A DNA stretch of 10,564 bases from an uncultured Ardenticatenia bacterium. Lineage in GTDB: Bacteria; Chloroflexota; Anaerolineae; Promineifilales; Promineifilaceae. Location of the stretch: NCBI GenBank assembly GCA_937858165.1, contig CALLZA010000708.1:1-10564 (forward strand), read 5' to 3'. Below, one piece after another: positions 413-10,327 of this stretch. Below the pieces are notes generated by a model. That model saw nothing but the letters and a program-made list of their open reading frames with translations, was not told the origin of the DNA and did no database searches. Position numbers and translations under genes: made by a program. Within the stretch, counting starts at the first letter, position 1; every line of letters begins with the position of its first letter.

Positions 413-441
413 TTGACGCCCTCTCTGTGTCATGCTATGAT
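413..441 (+). promoter_or_regulatory. Strong sigma70-like promoter for the aro leader
   Basis: A -35 box TTGACG (413-418) and a -10 box TATGAT (436-441) are separated by exactly 17 bases, each matching consensus at five of six positions. Initiation 7-8 bases past the -10 would be at A448 or A449, only 2-3 bases before the ATG of the leader peptide. This is the only strong promoter seen before aroH. Confidence 0.75.
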
Positions 442-450
442 GCTGCCAAC

Positions 451-558
451 ATGAACGGGTTGCTTACCAATTGCTTCGGCTTTTACTTTTATTTTAGCGA
501 CATCCCCCAGCCGCACTTGTTGCGAACGGGAGGGACTGCCGCGGCCTGCAAAGCATAA
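451..558 (+). CDS. Phe/Tyr-rich attenuation leader peptide (35 aa)
   Basis: A short ORF begins at ATG 451 and ends at TAA 556-558. Residues 8-16 read CFGFYFYFS: five Phe/Tyr codons in a row (UUU UAC UUU UAU UUU, 481-495) preceded by UUC GGC, giving four Phe and two Tyr codons within seven. Such a run is the signature of a ribosome-stalling leader peptide (compare PheL of enteric bacteria). It sits between a strong promoter and an intrinsic terminator, directly ahead of chorismate mutase and DAHP synthase, which is the pathway it would sense. No Shine-Dalgarno precedes the ATG; the predicted transcript starts 2-3 bases upstream, so initiation would be essentially leaderless. The tail after residue 16 has no recognisable domain and probably only positions the ribosome over the RNA segment at 538-548. 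Expression has not been shown. Confidence 0.8.
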   Translation: MNGLLTNCFGFYFYFSDIPQPHLLRTGGTAAACKA

Positions 559-590
559 GCCGAACGGAAGAAACCCCAAGACGAGACAAG

Positions 591-618
591 ACGCGGCTGA
601 TGAGGCCGCGTTTTTTAT
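591..618 (+). terminator. Intrinsic terminator of the aro attenuator
   Basis: A perfect 7-bp stem, ACGCGGC (591-597) with GCCGCGT (605-611) and loop TGATGAG, runs directly into a U tract (TTTTTT at 611-616, then ATT). It lies 34 bases upstream of aroH, with no coding sequence ended by it other than the leader peptide, so it fits an attenuator better than an end-of-operon terminator. Confidence 0.85.
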
Positions 619-651
619 TGCCTTTCGGTAGCATCAAGGAGAATAGGAATC

Positions 652-3263: not shown

Positions 3264-3324
3264 TGGCACGCTGGTCAAGACCGCTGATTCTGATCGGCGA
3301 AAACCGGCGCCAATCAGCGTGCCA
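3264..3324. repeat. Inverted repeat and operator-like dyad in the divergent promoter region
   Basis: TGGCACGCTG (3264-3273) recurs as its exact reverse complement CAGCGTGCCA (3315-3324). The left copy also lies inside a compact dyad AGCGTG-G-CACGCT (3260-3272). A second pairing, CGCTGATT (3282-3289 region) with AATCAGCG (3312-3319), competes for the same right arm. The right arm overlaps the presumed -35 region of chlI. It could bind a dimeric regulator or form alternative hairpins; the role is unknown. Confidence 0.6.
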
Positions 3325-3347
3325 TTCTGTGCCCCCTGGGCTATAAT
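3319..3347 (+). promoter_or_regulatory. Candidate promoter of the chelatase gene
   Basis: A perfect TATAAT (3342-3347) is preceded by GTGCCA (3319-3324), four of six to the -35 consensus, at 17 bases. Transcription would start near 3353, giving a 5' leader of about 58 bases. The -35 element lies in the right arm of the inverted repeat described separately, which suggests regulated initiation. Confidence 0.55.
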
Positions 3348-3411
3348 CGACAAAGTGAGTAGCGAGGGGAACCCCCAATCGTCCCCGAAATCATTGGAGT
3401 TGAATCGTCTC

Positions 3412-4515
3412 ATGGCACGTCGCGCGGTATTTCCATTCACGGCCATTGTCAACCAGGAGCGCATGAAGCGCGCCCTGATCCTCAATGCAGTCAGCCCCCG
3501 CATCGGCGGGGTACTCATTCGCGGCGAACGCGGCACGGCAAAATCCACCGCTGCCCGCGCCCTGGCCGCCCTATTGCCGGACATCACCGTGCTGGCCGGC
3601 AGCCGCTACAACTGTGACCCGGAGCGGCCGGATGAGTGGAGCGATGACAGCCATGCCCGCTATGACGATCACCCGTTGGCGACCGAGATTCGCCAGACGC
3701 CGTTCATCGACCTGCCCGTCAGCGCCACTGAAGATCGCGTCGTCGGCACGCTCGACATCGAGAAGGCCATCAAGTCGGGTGAGAAGCACTTCGAGCCGGG
3801 CATCCTGGCTTCGGCCAACCGCGGCGTGCTCTATGTGGACGAAGTCAACCTGCTCGATGACCACGTTGTTGACCTGCTGCTCGACGCGGCGGCGATGGGC
3901 GTCAACATCGTCGAGCGCGAGGGCATCAGCTTTTCCCACCCGTCGAAGTTCATCCTCGTCGGCACGATGAACCCCGAAGAGGGGGACTTGCGGCCCCAGC
4001 TGCTCGACCGCTTCGCCTTCTCCGTGCAGATCGAGGGGCTGGAAGATACCCAGGAGCGGGTGGCCATCATCGAGCGCCGCATCGCCTTTGAGGTCGACCC
4101 CGACGGCTTCCGCCGCCAATGGGCCGCGAGCGAGCGCGAGTTGTCCGAGCGCATCGCTCACGCCCGCGACATGGTCAACTTCGTACGCTATTCCCGCCGT
4201 GACTTGCTATCCATCGCCGGGCTGGTGTCGTCGCTCAACGTCGACGGCCACCGCGCCGATCTGGTCATCCTGCGCGGGGCGCAGGCCCACGCCGCCCTGC
4301 AAGGGCGCGACCGCGTCACGGACGAAGACATCATCCTGGCCGCCGAGCTGGCGCTGCCGCATCGCATCCGCGGTCGCCTGTTTCACGATTCGGCCCTGTC
4401 GGCCGGCGATCTGTCCGAACGGCTGGAAGAGGTGCAGGGCGAGATGGGCGTCAGCGACACGGGAGAGCGCGAGGAAGAGGCCGAATCGGCCGCCGCAGGA
4501 AAAAAAAAGCCTTAG
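3412..4515 (+). CDS. ChlI/BchI-like AAA+ chelatase subunit (zero-frame product)
   Basis: The 367-residue protein is an AAA+ ATPase of the magnesium/cobalt chelatase I-subunit family, which powers metal insertion into a tetrapyrrole. Walker A is GERGTAKS (38-45), Walker B LYVDEVNLLDD (140-150), sensor 1 GTMNPEEG (around Asn187), and the arginine-finger region RPQLLDRF (194-201). A C-terminal lid domain of I-subunit type follows (HRIRGRLFH near 320), then an acidic Glu/Ala-rich linker. ATG 3412 is chosen because the family alignment begins at FPFTAIVNQE; a GGAG lies 12 bases upstream. Translation stops at TAG 4513-4515 immediately after a run of nine A residues, and the next frame continues into the ChlD VWA domain. 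No bch genes are present, so a cobaltochelatase role for B12, with CobN encoded elsewhere, is more likely than Mg chelatase; this is inferred. Confidence 0.93.
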   Translation: MARRAVFPFTAIVNQERMKRALILNAVSPRIGGVLIRGERGTAKSTAARALAALLPDITVLAGSRYNCDPERPDEWSDDSHARYDDHPLATEIRQTPFIDLPVSATEDRVVGTLDIEKAIKSGEKHFEPGILASANRGVLYVDEVNLLDDHVVDLLLDAAAMGVNIVEREGISFSHPSKFILVGTMNPEEGDLRPQLLDRFAFSVQIEGLEDTQERVAIIERRIAFEVDPDGFRRQWAASERELSERIAHARDMVNFVRYSRRDLLSIAGLVSSLNVDGHRADLVILRGAQAHAALQGRDRVTDEDIILAAELALPHRIRGRLFHDSALSAGDLSERLEEVQGEMGVSDTGEREEEAESAAAGKKKP

Positions 4516-4539
4516 GCGAGGAAGAAGCGTCGCCTGAGG
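4503..4539 (+). other. Candidate -1 programmed frameshift or slippage site
   Basis: The zero-frame codons are GGA AAA AAA AAG CCT TAG. They contain the heptamer A_AAA_AAG (4503-4509), the canonical -1 slippery sequence used in E. coli dnaX, inside an A9 run (4500-4508). Directly downstream, CCTTAGGCGA (4510-4519) can pair with TCGCCTGAGG (4530-4539) as a 10-bp stem with a 10-base loop and one G-U pair; the inner 6 bp start 4 bases after the slippery site. A -1 shift continues A-L-G-E-E into the VWA frame with no interruption. The A9 run could also allow RNA polymerase slippage. A homopolymer sequencing error is the main alternative. Confidence 0.7.
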
Positions 4540-5468
4540 GGGCCGACGTCAGCCAGCGCGAAGCCGGGCCGCAGTCCGTGCCCACCACCCCCCAAGAGGG
4601 GCATTGGTGGGAGGGCGGACAGAAGATCGCCAGCCAGCAGGAGTTCACCACCCGCCGCCTCGACACCCAACTCGACCGCCTGACGCGCAAGCAGGCCGGT
4701 CGCCGCTCGGTTACCAAGACGGAGCGCAAGCGCGGACGTTACATCCAGTCGCGCTTGCCCAAGGGGGACAAGGTGCGCGACCTGGCCTTCGACGCCACCT
4801 TCCGCGCCGCCGCCCCCCACCAGATTCGCCGCGACCGCACCCGCCTGGCGCTAGCCCTGGAGAAGAGCGACCTGCGCGAGAAAGTGCGCGTCCGCCGTTC
4901 GGCCAACCTCATCCTGTTCGTCGTCGATGCCAGTTGGAGTATGGCCGTGGCTGAGCGCATGGAGGCCACCAAAGGGGCCATCCTGTCGCTGCTGACCGAT
5001 GCCTACCAGCGGCGCGACCGCGTCGGCCTCATCGTCTTCAACAAGAACGACGCCAATCTGGTGCTGCCGCCGACCAACTCGGTACAACTGGCGCGCAAGG
5101 CGCTGATGGATATCGCCGTCGGCGGCAAGACGCCGCTGTCGGCCGGGCTTTACCTGGCCTATCAGGTCTTCCGGCAAGAGGCGTACAGCCACCCCGATGT
5201 ACTGCCGCTGATGATCCTGTTGACCGACGGCGCGGGCAACGTCAGCATGACCGACCTGCCGCCCCAGCAGGAGGCGCACAAAATCGCCGAACTCATTGCC
5301 GAAACGGACGTGCGTTCGGTGGTCATCAACATGGAACACGCCGCCTTCGACCAGGGGCTGGCCCGCCTGCTGGCCGAAAGTCTCAGCGCCCCCTGCCACA
5401 CACTGGAGGATTTGCGGGCGGATACGTTGTATAAGACGGTGCTGGATCAGTTAGTGGTTAGTGGTTAG
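4509..5468 (+). CDS. ChlD-type VWA domain, made as a ChlI-ChlD fusion by -1 frameshift
   Basis: Read in the -1 frame from 4509, 319 residues follow the ChlI-like part, giving a predicted 685-residue fusion beginning at 3412, close to the length of full ChlD proteins. The first ~90 residues are a charged linker and coiled region. A VWA domain follows with a complete MIDAS: DASWS (fusion residues about 506-510), Thr in GGKTPLSAG (about 574) and Asp in LLTDGAGN (about 606). In chelatases this domain docks the AAA+ ring on the metal-inserting large subunit. The only start-like codon in this frame, GTG at 4578, lacks a Shine-Dalgarno and falls within the linker, so independent translation looks unlikely. 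Production of small and medium cobalt chelatase subunits from one frameshifted chlD gene is known in bacteria. The stop codon lies inside the short repeat at 5461. Confidence 0.88.
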   Translation, partial: ALGEEEASPEGADVSQREAGPQSVPTTPQEGHWWEGGQKIASQQEFTTRRLDTQLDRLTRKQAGRRSVTKTERKRGRYIQSRLPKGDKVRDLAFDATFRAAAPHQIRRDRTRLALALEKSDLREKVRVRRSANLILFVVDASWSMAVAERMEATKGAILSLLTDAYQRRDRVGLIVFNKNDANLVLPPTNSVQLARKALMDIAVGGKTPLSAGLYLAYQVFRQEAYSHPDVLPLMILLTDGAGNVSMTDLPPQQEAHKIAELIAETDVRSVVINMEHAAFDQGLARLLAESLSAPCHTLEDLRADTLYKTVLDQLVVSG

Positions 5469-9066: not shown

Positions 9067-9563
9067 TCGTCCAGCAGCGCCCGGGCCATCTCCAGGGCCT
9101 GAGCGGCCGGGTTTGGCCCGTGGTAGCCGGCCCGCACCTGGCCATCTGGCCCAATGAACACCAGCGCGATCTCCCGGCTGACGTTGCCGACCCCGTAGGC
9201 GCGGACGACATCGCCCGACCAGTCCGGTAACAGGATAAGATGGTCGGCAGCGTCGTACCCATCCGGTAGCGCCGCGGCAACTTCGCGATAGGAGCTTTCC
9301 ATCATGCCTTCGGCCATACCCCGGAGCAGGCGCGGGACGATGCGCACGTCAACAACTACGGCGATCGCCAGTTGGCGATGATCGGCGTAGCGGCGCCGCA
9401 ATGTTTCGACGATGGGTTGGGACGCGCGGCCGGTGTTGTGATCAACAAAGAGCAACAACAGCGGCCGGCCGAGATGATCGGCCGGCTGGAAAACACGACC
9501 GGAGCCGACAGCCGTAAGACTGAACGTCGGAGCGGGTTGGCCGGGCGCAAGTGGTTGGGTCAC
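9063..9563 (-). CDS. Redoxin-fold (AhpC/TSA-like) protein lacking cysteine
   Basis: The sequence PLAPGQPAPTFSLTAVGSGR, then HLGRPLLLLFVDHNTGRAS, then LVFIGPDGQVRAGYHG follows the order of strands and loops of AhpC/TSA and TlpA-like thioredoxin-fold proteins. At the place of the peroxidatic cysteine (normally 'F.P....C') it has VDHNTGRAS, and the whole protein contains no cysteine, so peroxidase or disulfide activity by the usual mechanism is not expected. Start is uncertain: the frame is open to ATG 9641 (192 aa), with other ATGs at 9623 and 9605. GTG 9563 (166 aa) is preferred because homology begins just after it and a promoter-like TTGGCC-17-TACAAT ends seven bases upstream, which would make a leaderless message. 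It might be a binding or structural protein. Confidence 0.72.
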   Translation of the reverse strand: MTQPLAPGQPAPTFSLTAVGSGRVFQPADHLGRPLLLLFVDHNTGRASQPIVETLRRRYADHRQLAIAVVVDVRIVPRLLRGMAEGMMESSYREVAAALPDGYDAADHLILLPDWSGDVVRAYGVGNVSREIALVFIGPDGQVRAGYHGPNPAAQALEMARALLDD

Positions 9564-9569
9564 GCGACT

Positions 9570-9598
9570 ATTGTAGTGTGAGAACGGGGGGAGGCCAA
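9570..9598 (-). promoter_or_regulatory. Candidate promoter giving a leaderless redoxin-like transcript
   Basis: On the minus strand TTGGCC (9598-9593) is 17 bases from TACAAT (9575-9570). Initiation 7 bases beyond would fall on the GTG at 9563. The -10 lies inside the longer alternative ORF, which argues against the longer starts. Confidence 0.4.
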
Positions 9599-9712
9599 CG
9601 ACCATTTTCCGATCAGCGTCCATCAGCGAAATTTGCGCCATCGGTGTACCATTCCGCTATGGGGGTGCGGGCCGTTCGCCGCCGGCGGCTGTTGCGGGTA
9701 AACTGGCCAACG

Positions 9713-10327
9713 ATGAGTGACCTGCTGTGTCCCCGCTGTGGGCGACCAACTCGTGAACAGGACCTGGTGGAGAGCCACTGGGCCAACGAGGCTGTCATCA
9801 ACCAGCTACGACAAGATCACCCCGAATGGGCCGCGGAGCAGGGCGCGTGTGTGGCCTGCATCCAGGAGGCACTGCTGCTGCTCCTCATTCAGGAGGGCGC
9901 GGCCACGTTCTACGAAAGCGTGCAGAGCGTCTGGCCGTTGGATGCATCGGCCGCGTTTGGCGCGCTGCCTACGCCGCTGCGGATGCGCGCCGACCCACGC
10001 TATACAGGCAAGGGCGTCACCGTTGCCGTGCTCGACTCGGGCTTCTATCCGCACCCCGACCTGACCCAGCCGGTCAACCGGATTCGGGCTTGGGTCAACG
10101 CCGGCGTCGAGCCAATCGAAGGGAGTTGGGACGGGTGGCAGACACCCGGGCTGCTGGCGACCGAGACGGAGCCGGGACTGTGGATCATCTATCAGGATTC
10201 GCTGCCGCCCGGCATCTATCAGTACAAGTTCATGATCGATGGTCACCGCTGGCTGCTCGATCCATCCAACCGTGCCCGTGTGCCGGATAGCGCGGGCGGC
10301 CTCAACAGTGTGTTGACCGTACCGTAG
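9713..10327 (+). CDS. Zn-ribbon/subtilase-stump/glycogen-binding-type hybrid protein
   Basis: The 204-residue product has three parts. Residues 1-50 contain CPRCG (Cys6, Cys9) and CVAC (Cys46, Cys49), a likely zinc ribbon. Residues 97-130 read YTGKGVTVAVLDSGFYPHPD, the N-terminal strand and catalytic Asp box (Asp108) of subtilisin-like S8 proteases. Residues about 125-204, with GSWDGW, PPGIYQYKFMIDGHRWLLDPSN and NSVLTV, match the early-set glycogen-binding fold (CBM48/AMPK-beta type). The His (HGT) and Ser (GTSMA) boxes of subtilases are absent, so it cannot be a normal protease; an in-frame deletion of the peptidase core is a likely origin. The frame is open from 9551, but ATG 9713 starts the recognisable sequence. 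No clear ribosome binding site is seen; a TAAACT box ends nine bases before the ATG. Confidence 0.75.
   Translation: MSDLLCPRCGRPTREQDLVESHWANEAVINQLRQDHPEWAAEQGACVACIQEALLLLLIQEGAATFYESVQSVWPLDASAAFGALPTPLRMRADPRYTGKGVTVAVLDSGFYPHPDLTQPVNRIRAWVNAGVEPIEGSWDGWQTPGLLATETEPGLWIIYQDSLPPGIYQYKFMIDGHRWLLDPSNRARVPDSAGGLNSVLTVP

Follow-up and report, generated by a model that had tools for sequence, protein, structure and literature searches.

We found that the chorismate mutase gene aroH and the DAHP synthase gene aroF of a Chloroflexota bacterium are very probably controlled by a ribosome-mediated transcription attenuator, which, judged from its sequence, would respond when either tRNA-Phe or tRNA-Tyr is poorly charged and would thus act as an OR gate. 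The window, that is, the whole stretch of DNA that was analyzed, was a single contig of 10,564 bases from an incomplete (79%) 4.4-Mb genome. Because the nearest named match of its AroH protein came from Promineifilum sp. SSF11 (85% identity), the host was assigned to the Chloroflexota, as had been guessed in the first-pass annotation. On the forward strand, which also bears the promoter, leader, and terminator described below, aroH (652-1143) and aroF (1257-2279) were identified with the NCBIfam models TIGR01796 (138 bits against a cut-off of 82) and NF006421 (506 bits against a cut-off of 335; also TIGR01361), respectively, and both genes lie where the first-pass annotation had placed them. 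An aroH gene was found in 45 of the 52 genomes of the same family that were searched, with an aroF match downstream of it in 43 cases. The two exceptions were L026 and L040, where the fetched stretch stops at a contig end and no aroF was found before it. By reading, a long inverted repeat of ggttccaggggcca-type units was observed between aroH and aroF (1164-1243); it may be a mobile element-like repeat, or else serve transcript processing or termination within the operon.

The promoter upstream of the leader (413-441; motif score 10/12) was read directly, with a -35 element TTGACG at 413-418, a spacer of 17 nt, and an extended -10 element TATGAT at 436-441 preceded by TGC. The leader peptide ORF of 35 aa spans 451-558, with its stop codon at 556-558, and was delimited by reading and by family comparison; its control codons, Phe-Gly-Phe-Tyr-Phe-Tyr-Phe (FGFYFYF, residues 9-15), occupy 475-495. 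Both the promoter and the ORF with this run had been claimed from the letters alone, and both stood up to inspection. Of 40 family rows, 36 have the leader ATG 6-10 nt past the -10 box, leaving a 5' leader of ~0-3 nt (L031, from the same contig as L002, and L032, from outside the family, were excluded from this count onward); the leader ORF is therefore probably leaderless, with a transcription start predicted from the promoter at ~448-451. In f2, another family of this class, the ATG was located 9-10 nt past the -10 box in all 10 rows with a called leader; in family f23 the distance was ~35-43 nt, and several non-family Chloroflexota families also had the leader ATG ~35-43 nt past the -10 box.

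Behind the leader ORF, and before the first structural gene, lies an intrinsic terminator (590-616), with a GC-rich stem of ~590-597/605-612 and a U-tract (TTTTTT) at 611-616. The early description of such a stem followed by TTTTTT was upheld by reading, by separate scans, and by the family alignment, despite a simple terminator scan of 300-1300 that listed none (0.9 expected by chance). The fold of 448-622 had a z of -3.06, with 1 of 200 shuffles being equally good. When 39 family sequences were aligned with MAFFT (L025, which contains an N run, was excluded here and from the duplex and folding tests), four segments stood out besides D, the terminator 3' arm. Segment A (470-490) comprises the control codons and their 5' flank, and its partner, segment E (550-570), lies around and after the leader stop, both being supported by the pairing of native against swapped sequences described below. 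Segment B (508-520, CAGCCGC-A-CTTGT) lies within the leader ORF and is the candidate 5' strand of the antiterminator. Segment C (586-599, ACAAGACGCGGCTG) consists of the terminator 5' arm plus an ACAAG lead, and is common to the antiterminator (with B) and the terminator (with D).

We addressed the conservation of this arrangement with a picker that ignored amino acids and called a promoter, an ATG 5-11 nt past the -10 box, an ORF of 12-60 codons, and a terminator behind it; as it requires the leaderless layout, other layouts were scored as misses. A leader with a terminator was called at 38 of the 45 family aroH loci, and every one of these 38 leaders carried a Phe/Tyr run, the peptides averaging 4.6 Phe and 2.3 Tyr. 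Among the seven unpicked loci, L045 was cut by a contig end, a Phe/Tyr ORF that failed the rule was visible at L025 and L052, and a leader of this kind was not found at L026, L040, L043, and L051. Over all 105 loci of aroH, pheS, and tyrS to which the picker was applied, 19 were left without a leader; L045, L179, and L226 lie so close to a contig end that the upstream sequence was too short, and at L025, L052, L171, L187, L207, and L229 a leader was present elsewhere but failed the promoter or distance rule, the last four being the same places as L149, L140, L139, and L143, respectively.

The same design was not restricted to aroH. With a covariance model derived from the aroH elements, copies, counting those at aroH, were found at E up to 1 in at least 50 of the 52 genomes of the family, and at 40 further places that were read, the design was observed before pheS, tyrS, stand-alone aroF, and one orphan gene; three of the 40 were without a called promoter-linked leader, and three were without a downstream ORF of at least 140 codons in the stretch. 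The identity of the genes was determined by NCBIfam for eight representatives (three pheS, two tyrS, and three aroF), and the others were judged by eye. For the codon analysis, pheS and tyrS loci were drawn from protein searches, independently of the RNA model, with 30 loci examined of 39 genomes matched for pheS and 30 of 47 for tyrS. The blind picker called a leader and terminator at 24 of the 30 pheS loci, with means of 5.2 Phe and 0.2 Tyr (a Phe run), and at 24 of the 30 tyrS loci, with means of 1.2 Phe and 3.5 Tyr (a Tyr run). In the densest window of eight codons, the aroH leaders had 158 Phe and 85 Tyr among 304 codons (3 Leu), the pheS leaders 112 Phe and 3 Tyr among 192 (2 Leu), and the tyrS leaders 21 Phe and 82 Tyr among 192 (3 Leu). 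The leader codons therefore track the amino acid made or used by the downstream gene, which is a natural specificity control for ribosome-mediated attenuation. It is because the codon content follows the downstream gene, the strongest evidence of this study, that we read these codons as codons. The aroH leaders had on average 6.39 Phe/Tyr in their best eight codons versus 1.88 in shuffles of their own nucleotides, and the density was matched by <5% of such shuffles for 38 of 38 aroH, 23 of 24 pheS, and 22 of 24 tyrS leaders; a chance ORF was thus rejected. A pattern search of the genus for the promoter-to-terminator layout, whose spacing was too short for the aroH elements, gave 20 matches, whereas the control pattern, run in reverse, gave 10. 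Judged from their coordinates and leaders, 13 of the 20 were pheS or tyrS elements, and seven look like chance.

Three family genomes (L118, L131, and L133) carried an aroF without aroH directly ahead and with its own Phe/Tyr leader, FFSFYF, FFYYW, and FFYFYF, respectively. A similar leader and terminator preceded the orphan ORF of ~105 aa at L111 (G000:C1020), L114, L127, and L145, where the peptide was FVF(x)SDC-like with no clear Phe run; the orphan ORF had no Pfam match in the one copy tested. The trpE and trpS genes were searched in 16 relatives, with matches in 11 and 15, respectively. At 20 trpE-type and 17 trpS loci, the leaderless picker made a single weak call (L333), without a Trp run, and upstream of nine trpE loci no ORF had more than two Trp per eight codons, some ORF with two being present at six of the nine. 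Among 13 prephenate dehydratase loci, one had a leader (L350). This locus belongs to a genome of the same order from outside the family (G354), and its leader, VYFYFYF, lies 8 nt past a -10 box and precedes a cluster in which a prephenate dehydratase gene lies between aroH and aroF, the last two identified by eye.

The alternative helices were evaluated by comparison. In the 39 sequences, 93.7% of the cells of the terminator C:D were paired, with a T-run behind, and 80.4% of those of B:C. The covariation score of B:C was 0.116, versus 0.011-0.052 for slid partners and a mean of 0.070 in shuffles, with 0 of 500 shuffles reaching 0.116. The compensatory changes to be looked for in the antiterminator were indeed seen, for example in the B/C pairs GACCGC/GCGGTC (L039 and L042), GCGCCGC/GCGGCGC (L017 and L020), and GGCCGC/GCGGCC (L046), but two of the five covariation measures fell within the shuffle range (56/500 and 206/500). 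Since RNAalifold recovered the terminator alone from the 39 sequences, we instead compared, genus by genus, the duplex energy of each native pair with that of cross-genus swaps. In the aroH leaders, the native pair was better in 19 of 19 genera for A:E (p = 1.9e-6) and in 17 of 19 for B:C (p = 3.2e-4); the differences were not significant for A:B (9/19), B:E (6/19), E:C (7/19), and A:C (8/19). At L038 and L052, the best partner of C was located near the stop codon, unlike the position of B elsewhere. In the pheS leaders, A:E was specific (16 of 18 genera, p = 4e-4) and B:C borderline (12 of 18, p = 0.054); in the tyrS leaders, A:E was marginal (10 of 13, p = 0.047) and B:C was not specific (6 of 13, p = 0.27). 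These comparisons support two crossing helices, A:E and B:C, in the aroH leaders. As B falls within the loop that A:E closes and C falls beyond it, the two helices would exclude each other without a common strand. The sequence features expected of an attenuator were present in aroH, namely a short leader ORF in which codons for amino acids of the pathway form a run, an intrinsic terminator between this ORF and the first structural gene, and a predicted antiterminator exclusive with the terminator, the last being borderline in pheS and not specific in tyrS. The comparison as a whole supports the leader, its codons, the terminator, the specific complementarity of B with C and of A with E, and the match between codons and downstream gene.

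Ribosome stalling, its kinetics, the transcription start, and the direction of the response we infer as follows. Transcription would begin on the leader ATG or immediately beside it, so that the ribosome would load straight onto the 5' end. When either tRNA is poorly charged, the ribosome would stall in the Phe/Tyr run and cover A, thus blocking A:E; B could then pair with C once C is made, pre-empting C:D and allowing readthrough into aroH-aroF. When both tRNAs are charged, the ribosome would leave A, A:E would close around B, and C would be free for D, so that transcription would stop at the U-tract. In folding of transcripts ended at C, masking A increased the expected B:C pairs in 37 of 39 sequences, in some rows only slightly. 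The number of sequences, out of 39, in which B:C reached at least four pairs was 37 with A masked, 31 when a ribosome occupied the stop codon, and 23 without any mask. The transcript of the window itself, ended at C, had 12.7 expected B:C pairs at equilibrium whether masked or unmasked, with A:E absent when unmasked; in full-length transcripts at equilibrium, C:D mostly won in every state, including that with A masked. Because equilibrium folding favors C:D in the full-length transcript and B:C in the unmasked shorter one, the order of synthesis, with A, B, and E made before C and D, would have to matter. Termination when amino acids are plentiful would thus need co-transcriptional order or ribosome timing, such that the ribosome is off A and E, or covers B, at the time C appears.

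Several other readings were weighed against this mechanism. The two segments that had been put forward in the first-pass annotation as partners of the terminator 5' arm, CAGCCGC at 508-514 and GCCGCG at 538-543, are each complementary to it by reading. It is thus conceivable, albeit unlikely, that the attenuator is the same but that its antiterminator strand in this lineage is 538-543, which a ribosome at the stop could reach and mask as in a trp-type leader. L002 retains this site, and the best C partners of L038 and L052 likewise lie near the stop; in the other five aligned congeners (L003-L007), however, the GCG of this site is replaced by ATG or ACG. By contrast, conservation of 511-514 over the 39 sequences is at least 90%, and 508-520 forms the longer duplex by reading. 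The strand 508-520 was kept as the antiterminator candidate, and 538-543, present only in L001 and L002 and hence shared in the alignment with L002 alone, was set aside. A different kind of sensor, an arrest peptide whose nascent chain detects free Phe or Tyr, much as TnaC detects Trp, instead of tRNA charging, could account for some residues past the run being conserved within a genus. These residues overlap segment B, however, and the C-terminal parts vary across genera while the aromatic codons stay; moreover, the residue tracks the downstream gene in the pheS and tyrS leaders, as expected for codon sensing, and we regard an arrest peptide as very improbable.

It is more doubtful still that the T-rich run is kept for RNA pairing with E alone, with the Phe/Tyr codons as a by-product. 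Segment A does pair with E and is pyrimidine-rich, but Leu codons numbered only 3 of 304, the other two frames averaged 2.66 and 2.24 versus 6.39, and Tyr and Phe codons segregate by downstream gene; a U-rich RNA without a coding role was therefore rejected on the basis of the frame-specific density, the near-zero Leu, and the codons following the gene. Known RNA elements were sought with Rfam, and none of its families, including the T-box covariance model RF00230, matched at the gathering threshold in the window or in 18 related loci, pheS and tyrS among them. At E up to 10, there were five sub-threshold hits, none of them a leader family, so that the Rfam amino acid leader families had no covariance model match at either setting; the best hit, with 25.3 bits (gathering 60) and E = 0.043, was to OrzO-P and covered the terminator on the reverse strand. 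T-boxes are reported in Chloroflexi in PMC3766115, but given the absence of Rfam matches upstream of these genes, control by a T-box, a riboswitch, or another known RNA element, with the ORF incidental, seems just as remote as a function in RNA pairing alone.

The ribosome-mediated attenuator was then considered across the phylum. The sample consisted of 28 non-family loci and 80 hand-picked places, with 158 genomes matched of 301 searched; picking was by genus, mostly one to a few each, upstream content was ignored, and one place at a contig start was skipped. L304, which had no BLAST match, was dropped, leaving 107 aroH loci outside the family. An ORF with at least five Phe/Tyr/Trp in eight codons was present at 45 of the 107 (2 in the reverse-strand control) and was accompanied by a terminator at 40, in 10 families (0 in the control), under density and terminator rules that were fixed after viewing the 28 loci, the latter loosened because a stricter version missed Chloroflexia-like terminators. 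Together with the 38 of 45 family loci called blind to amino acids, these 40 of 107 elsewhere in the phylum answered a test set in advance, namely whether relatives keep the Phe/Tyr run along with the terminator, in favor of the attenuator. The positives were distributed as 10/11 loci in f2, 1/1 in f3, 1/1 in f4, 2/2 in f5, 1/1 in f11, 1/1 in f12, 18/18 in f23, 4/4 in f33, 1/1 in f59, and 1/1 in f62; in 25 other families, no leader with terminator was found by the rule, and five of these had one aromatic-rich ORF with no terminator called. The terminator sequences differed from family to family. At L083, L085, L102, L103, and L235, from other Chloroflexota families, the aromatic codons were kept, often with Trp, and the terminators were unrelated. 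As aromatic-rich leaders with terminators were found in 11 Chloroflexota families (its own and 10 others), we proposed that this logic is older or has arisen more than once.

Leader-peptide Phe attenuators are known from pheA and pheST of Proteobacteria. Like these, the elements described here have a leader rich in Phe codons, an intrinsic terminator, and an alternative antiterminator, and pheS is also a predicted target; unlike these, they occur in another phylum, would act on aroH-aroF with mixed Phe/Tyr codons, apparently have a leaderless leader, place the antiterminator strand within the ORF, and have a separate helix between the control codons and the stop region. The enterobacterial ilvGMEDA and ilvB operons have multi-amino-acid attenuators, in which, as is proposed here, a single leader carries codons for more than one end product and serves as an OR gate on a common pathway; the amino acids there are branched-chain and not aromatic, and the phylum and RNA geometry differ. 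In the four-segment topology of trpL, the strand after the stop pairs with either the control-codon strand or the terminator 5' arm (1:2 vs 2:3). This topology did not apply here, where E lacked specific pairing with C (7/19 genera) and B with A (9/19), so that exclusion would be by crossing helices instead of the shared strand of trpL. In Bacillus, tyrS is controlled by a T-box.

Among related cases, PMC1262725 names the pheST attenuator, describes leader-peptide attenuators of trpS and leuS in Streptomyces, and gives a T-box as the control for tyrosine in other species; the Streptomyces cases resemble the present ones as synthetase genes with classical leader attenuators outside the Proteobacteria, the synthetases here being pheS and tyrS. 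The trpL leader of Sinorhizobium meliloti is described as leaderless in PMC7298713, and its transcript begins at the leader ATG, as is predicted for the start here, although it carries Trp codons and belongs to the Alphaproteobacteria, in contrast to the Phe/Tyr codons of the Chloroflexota. The authors of PMC2965389 state that they knew of no leader-peptide system outside the Proteobacteria and Actinobacteria before their own Firmicutes case, and His attenuators in further Firmicutes appear in PMC9413887; these are likewise leader-peptide attenuation beyond the Proteobacteria and Actinobacteria, but for histidine and in Firmicutes. A gamma-proteobacterial origin of amino acid attenuators is suggested in PMC3766115.

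Leader-peptide attenuation is little described in the Chloroflexota. In open-access full texts, we found neither a leader with Phe and Tyr codons ahead of genes for chorismate mutase and DAHP synthase nor a Tyr-codon leader on tyrS; most of the subscription literature lay outside the scope of the search, above all the comparative survey of attenuation in amino acid and synthetase operons by Lopatovskaya 2010 (Mol Biol 44:128), which might cover Chloroflexi. As far as searched, the phylum, the Phe+Tyr control of aroH-aroF, the Tyr leader on tyrS, and the geometry look new, the kind of mechanism being known. We lean, with some reserve, toward an aromatic attenuation regulon of Chloroflexota origin, independent of the proteobacterial one, in which a single leaderless design was recoded with Phe, Tyr, or both for pheS, tyrS, and aroH-aroF, including a Tyr attenuator for the tyrosyl-tRNA synthetase gene; a helix enclosing the antiterminator strand, and not a shared strand, would bring about exclusion. 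The matched trio of Phe, Tyr, and Phe+Tyr leaders on one RNA scaffold provides a ready-made experiment on attenuator sensitivity, and likewise on how transcription and translation are coupled when mRNAs are leaderless, in a phylum that has been little studied.

Farther along the window, two adjoining ORFs (3319-5468) corresponded to a putative cobaltochelatase (TIGR02442) in two pieces, with BchI-like and BchD-like parts matching profile positions 1-353 and 388-641. An ORF at 9551-10327 contained a glycogen-binding-like domain (AMPK1_CBM, E = 4.3e-8), preceded by a weak, sub-threshold subtilase-like stretch.
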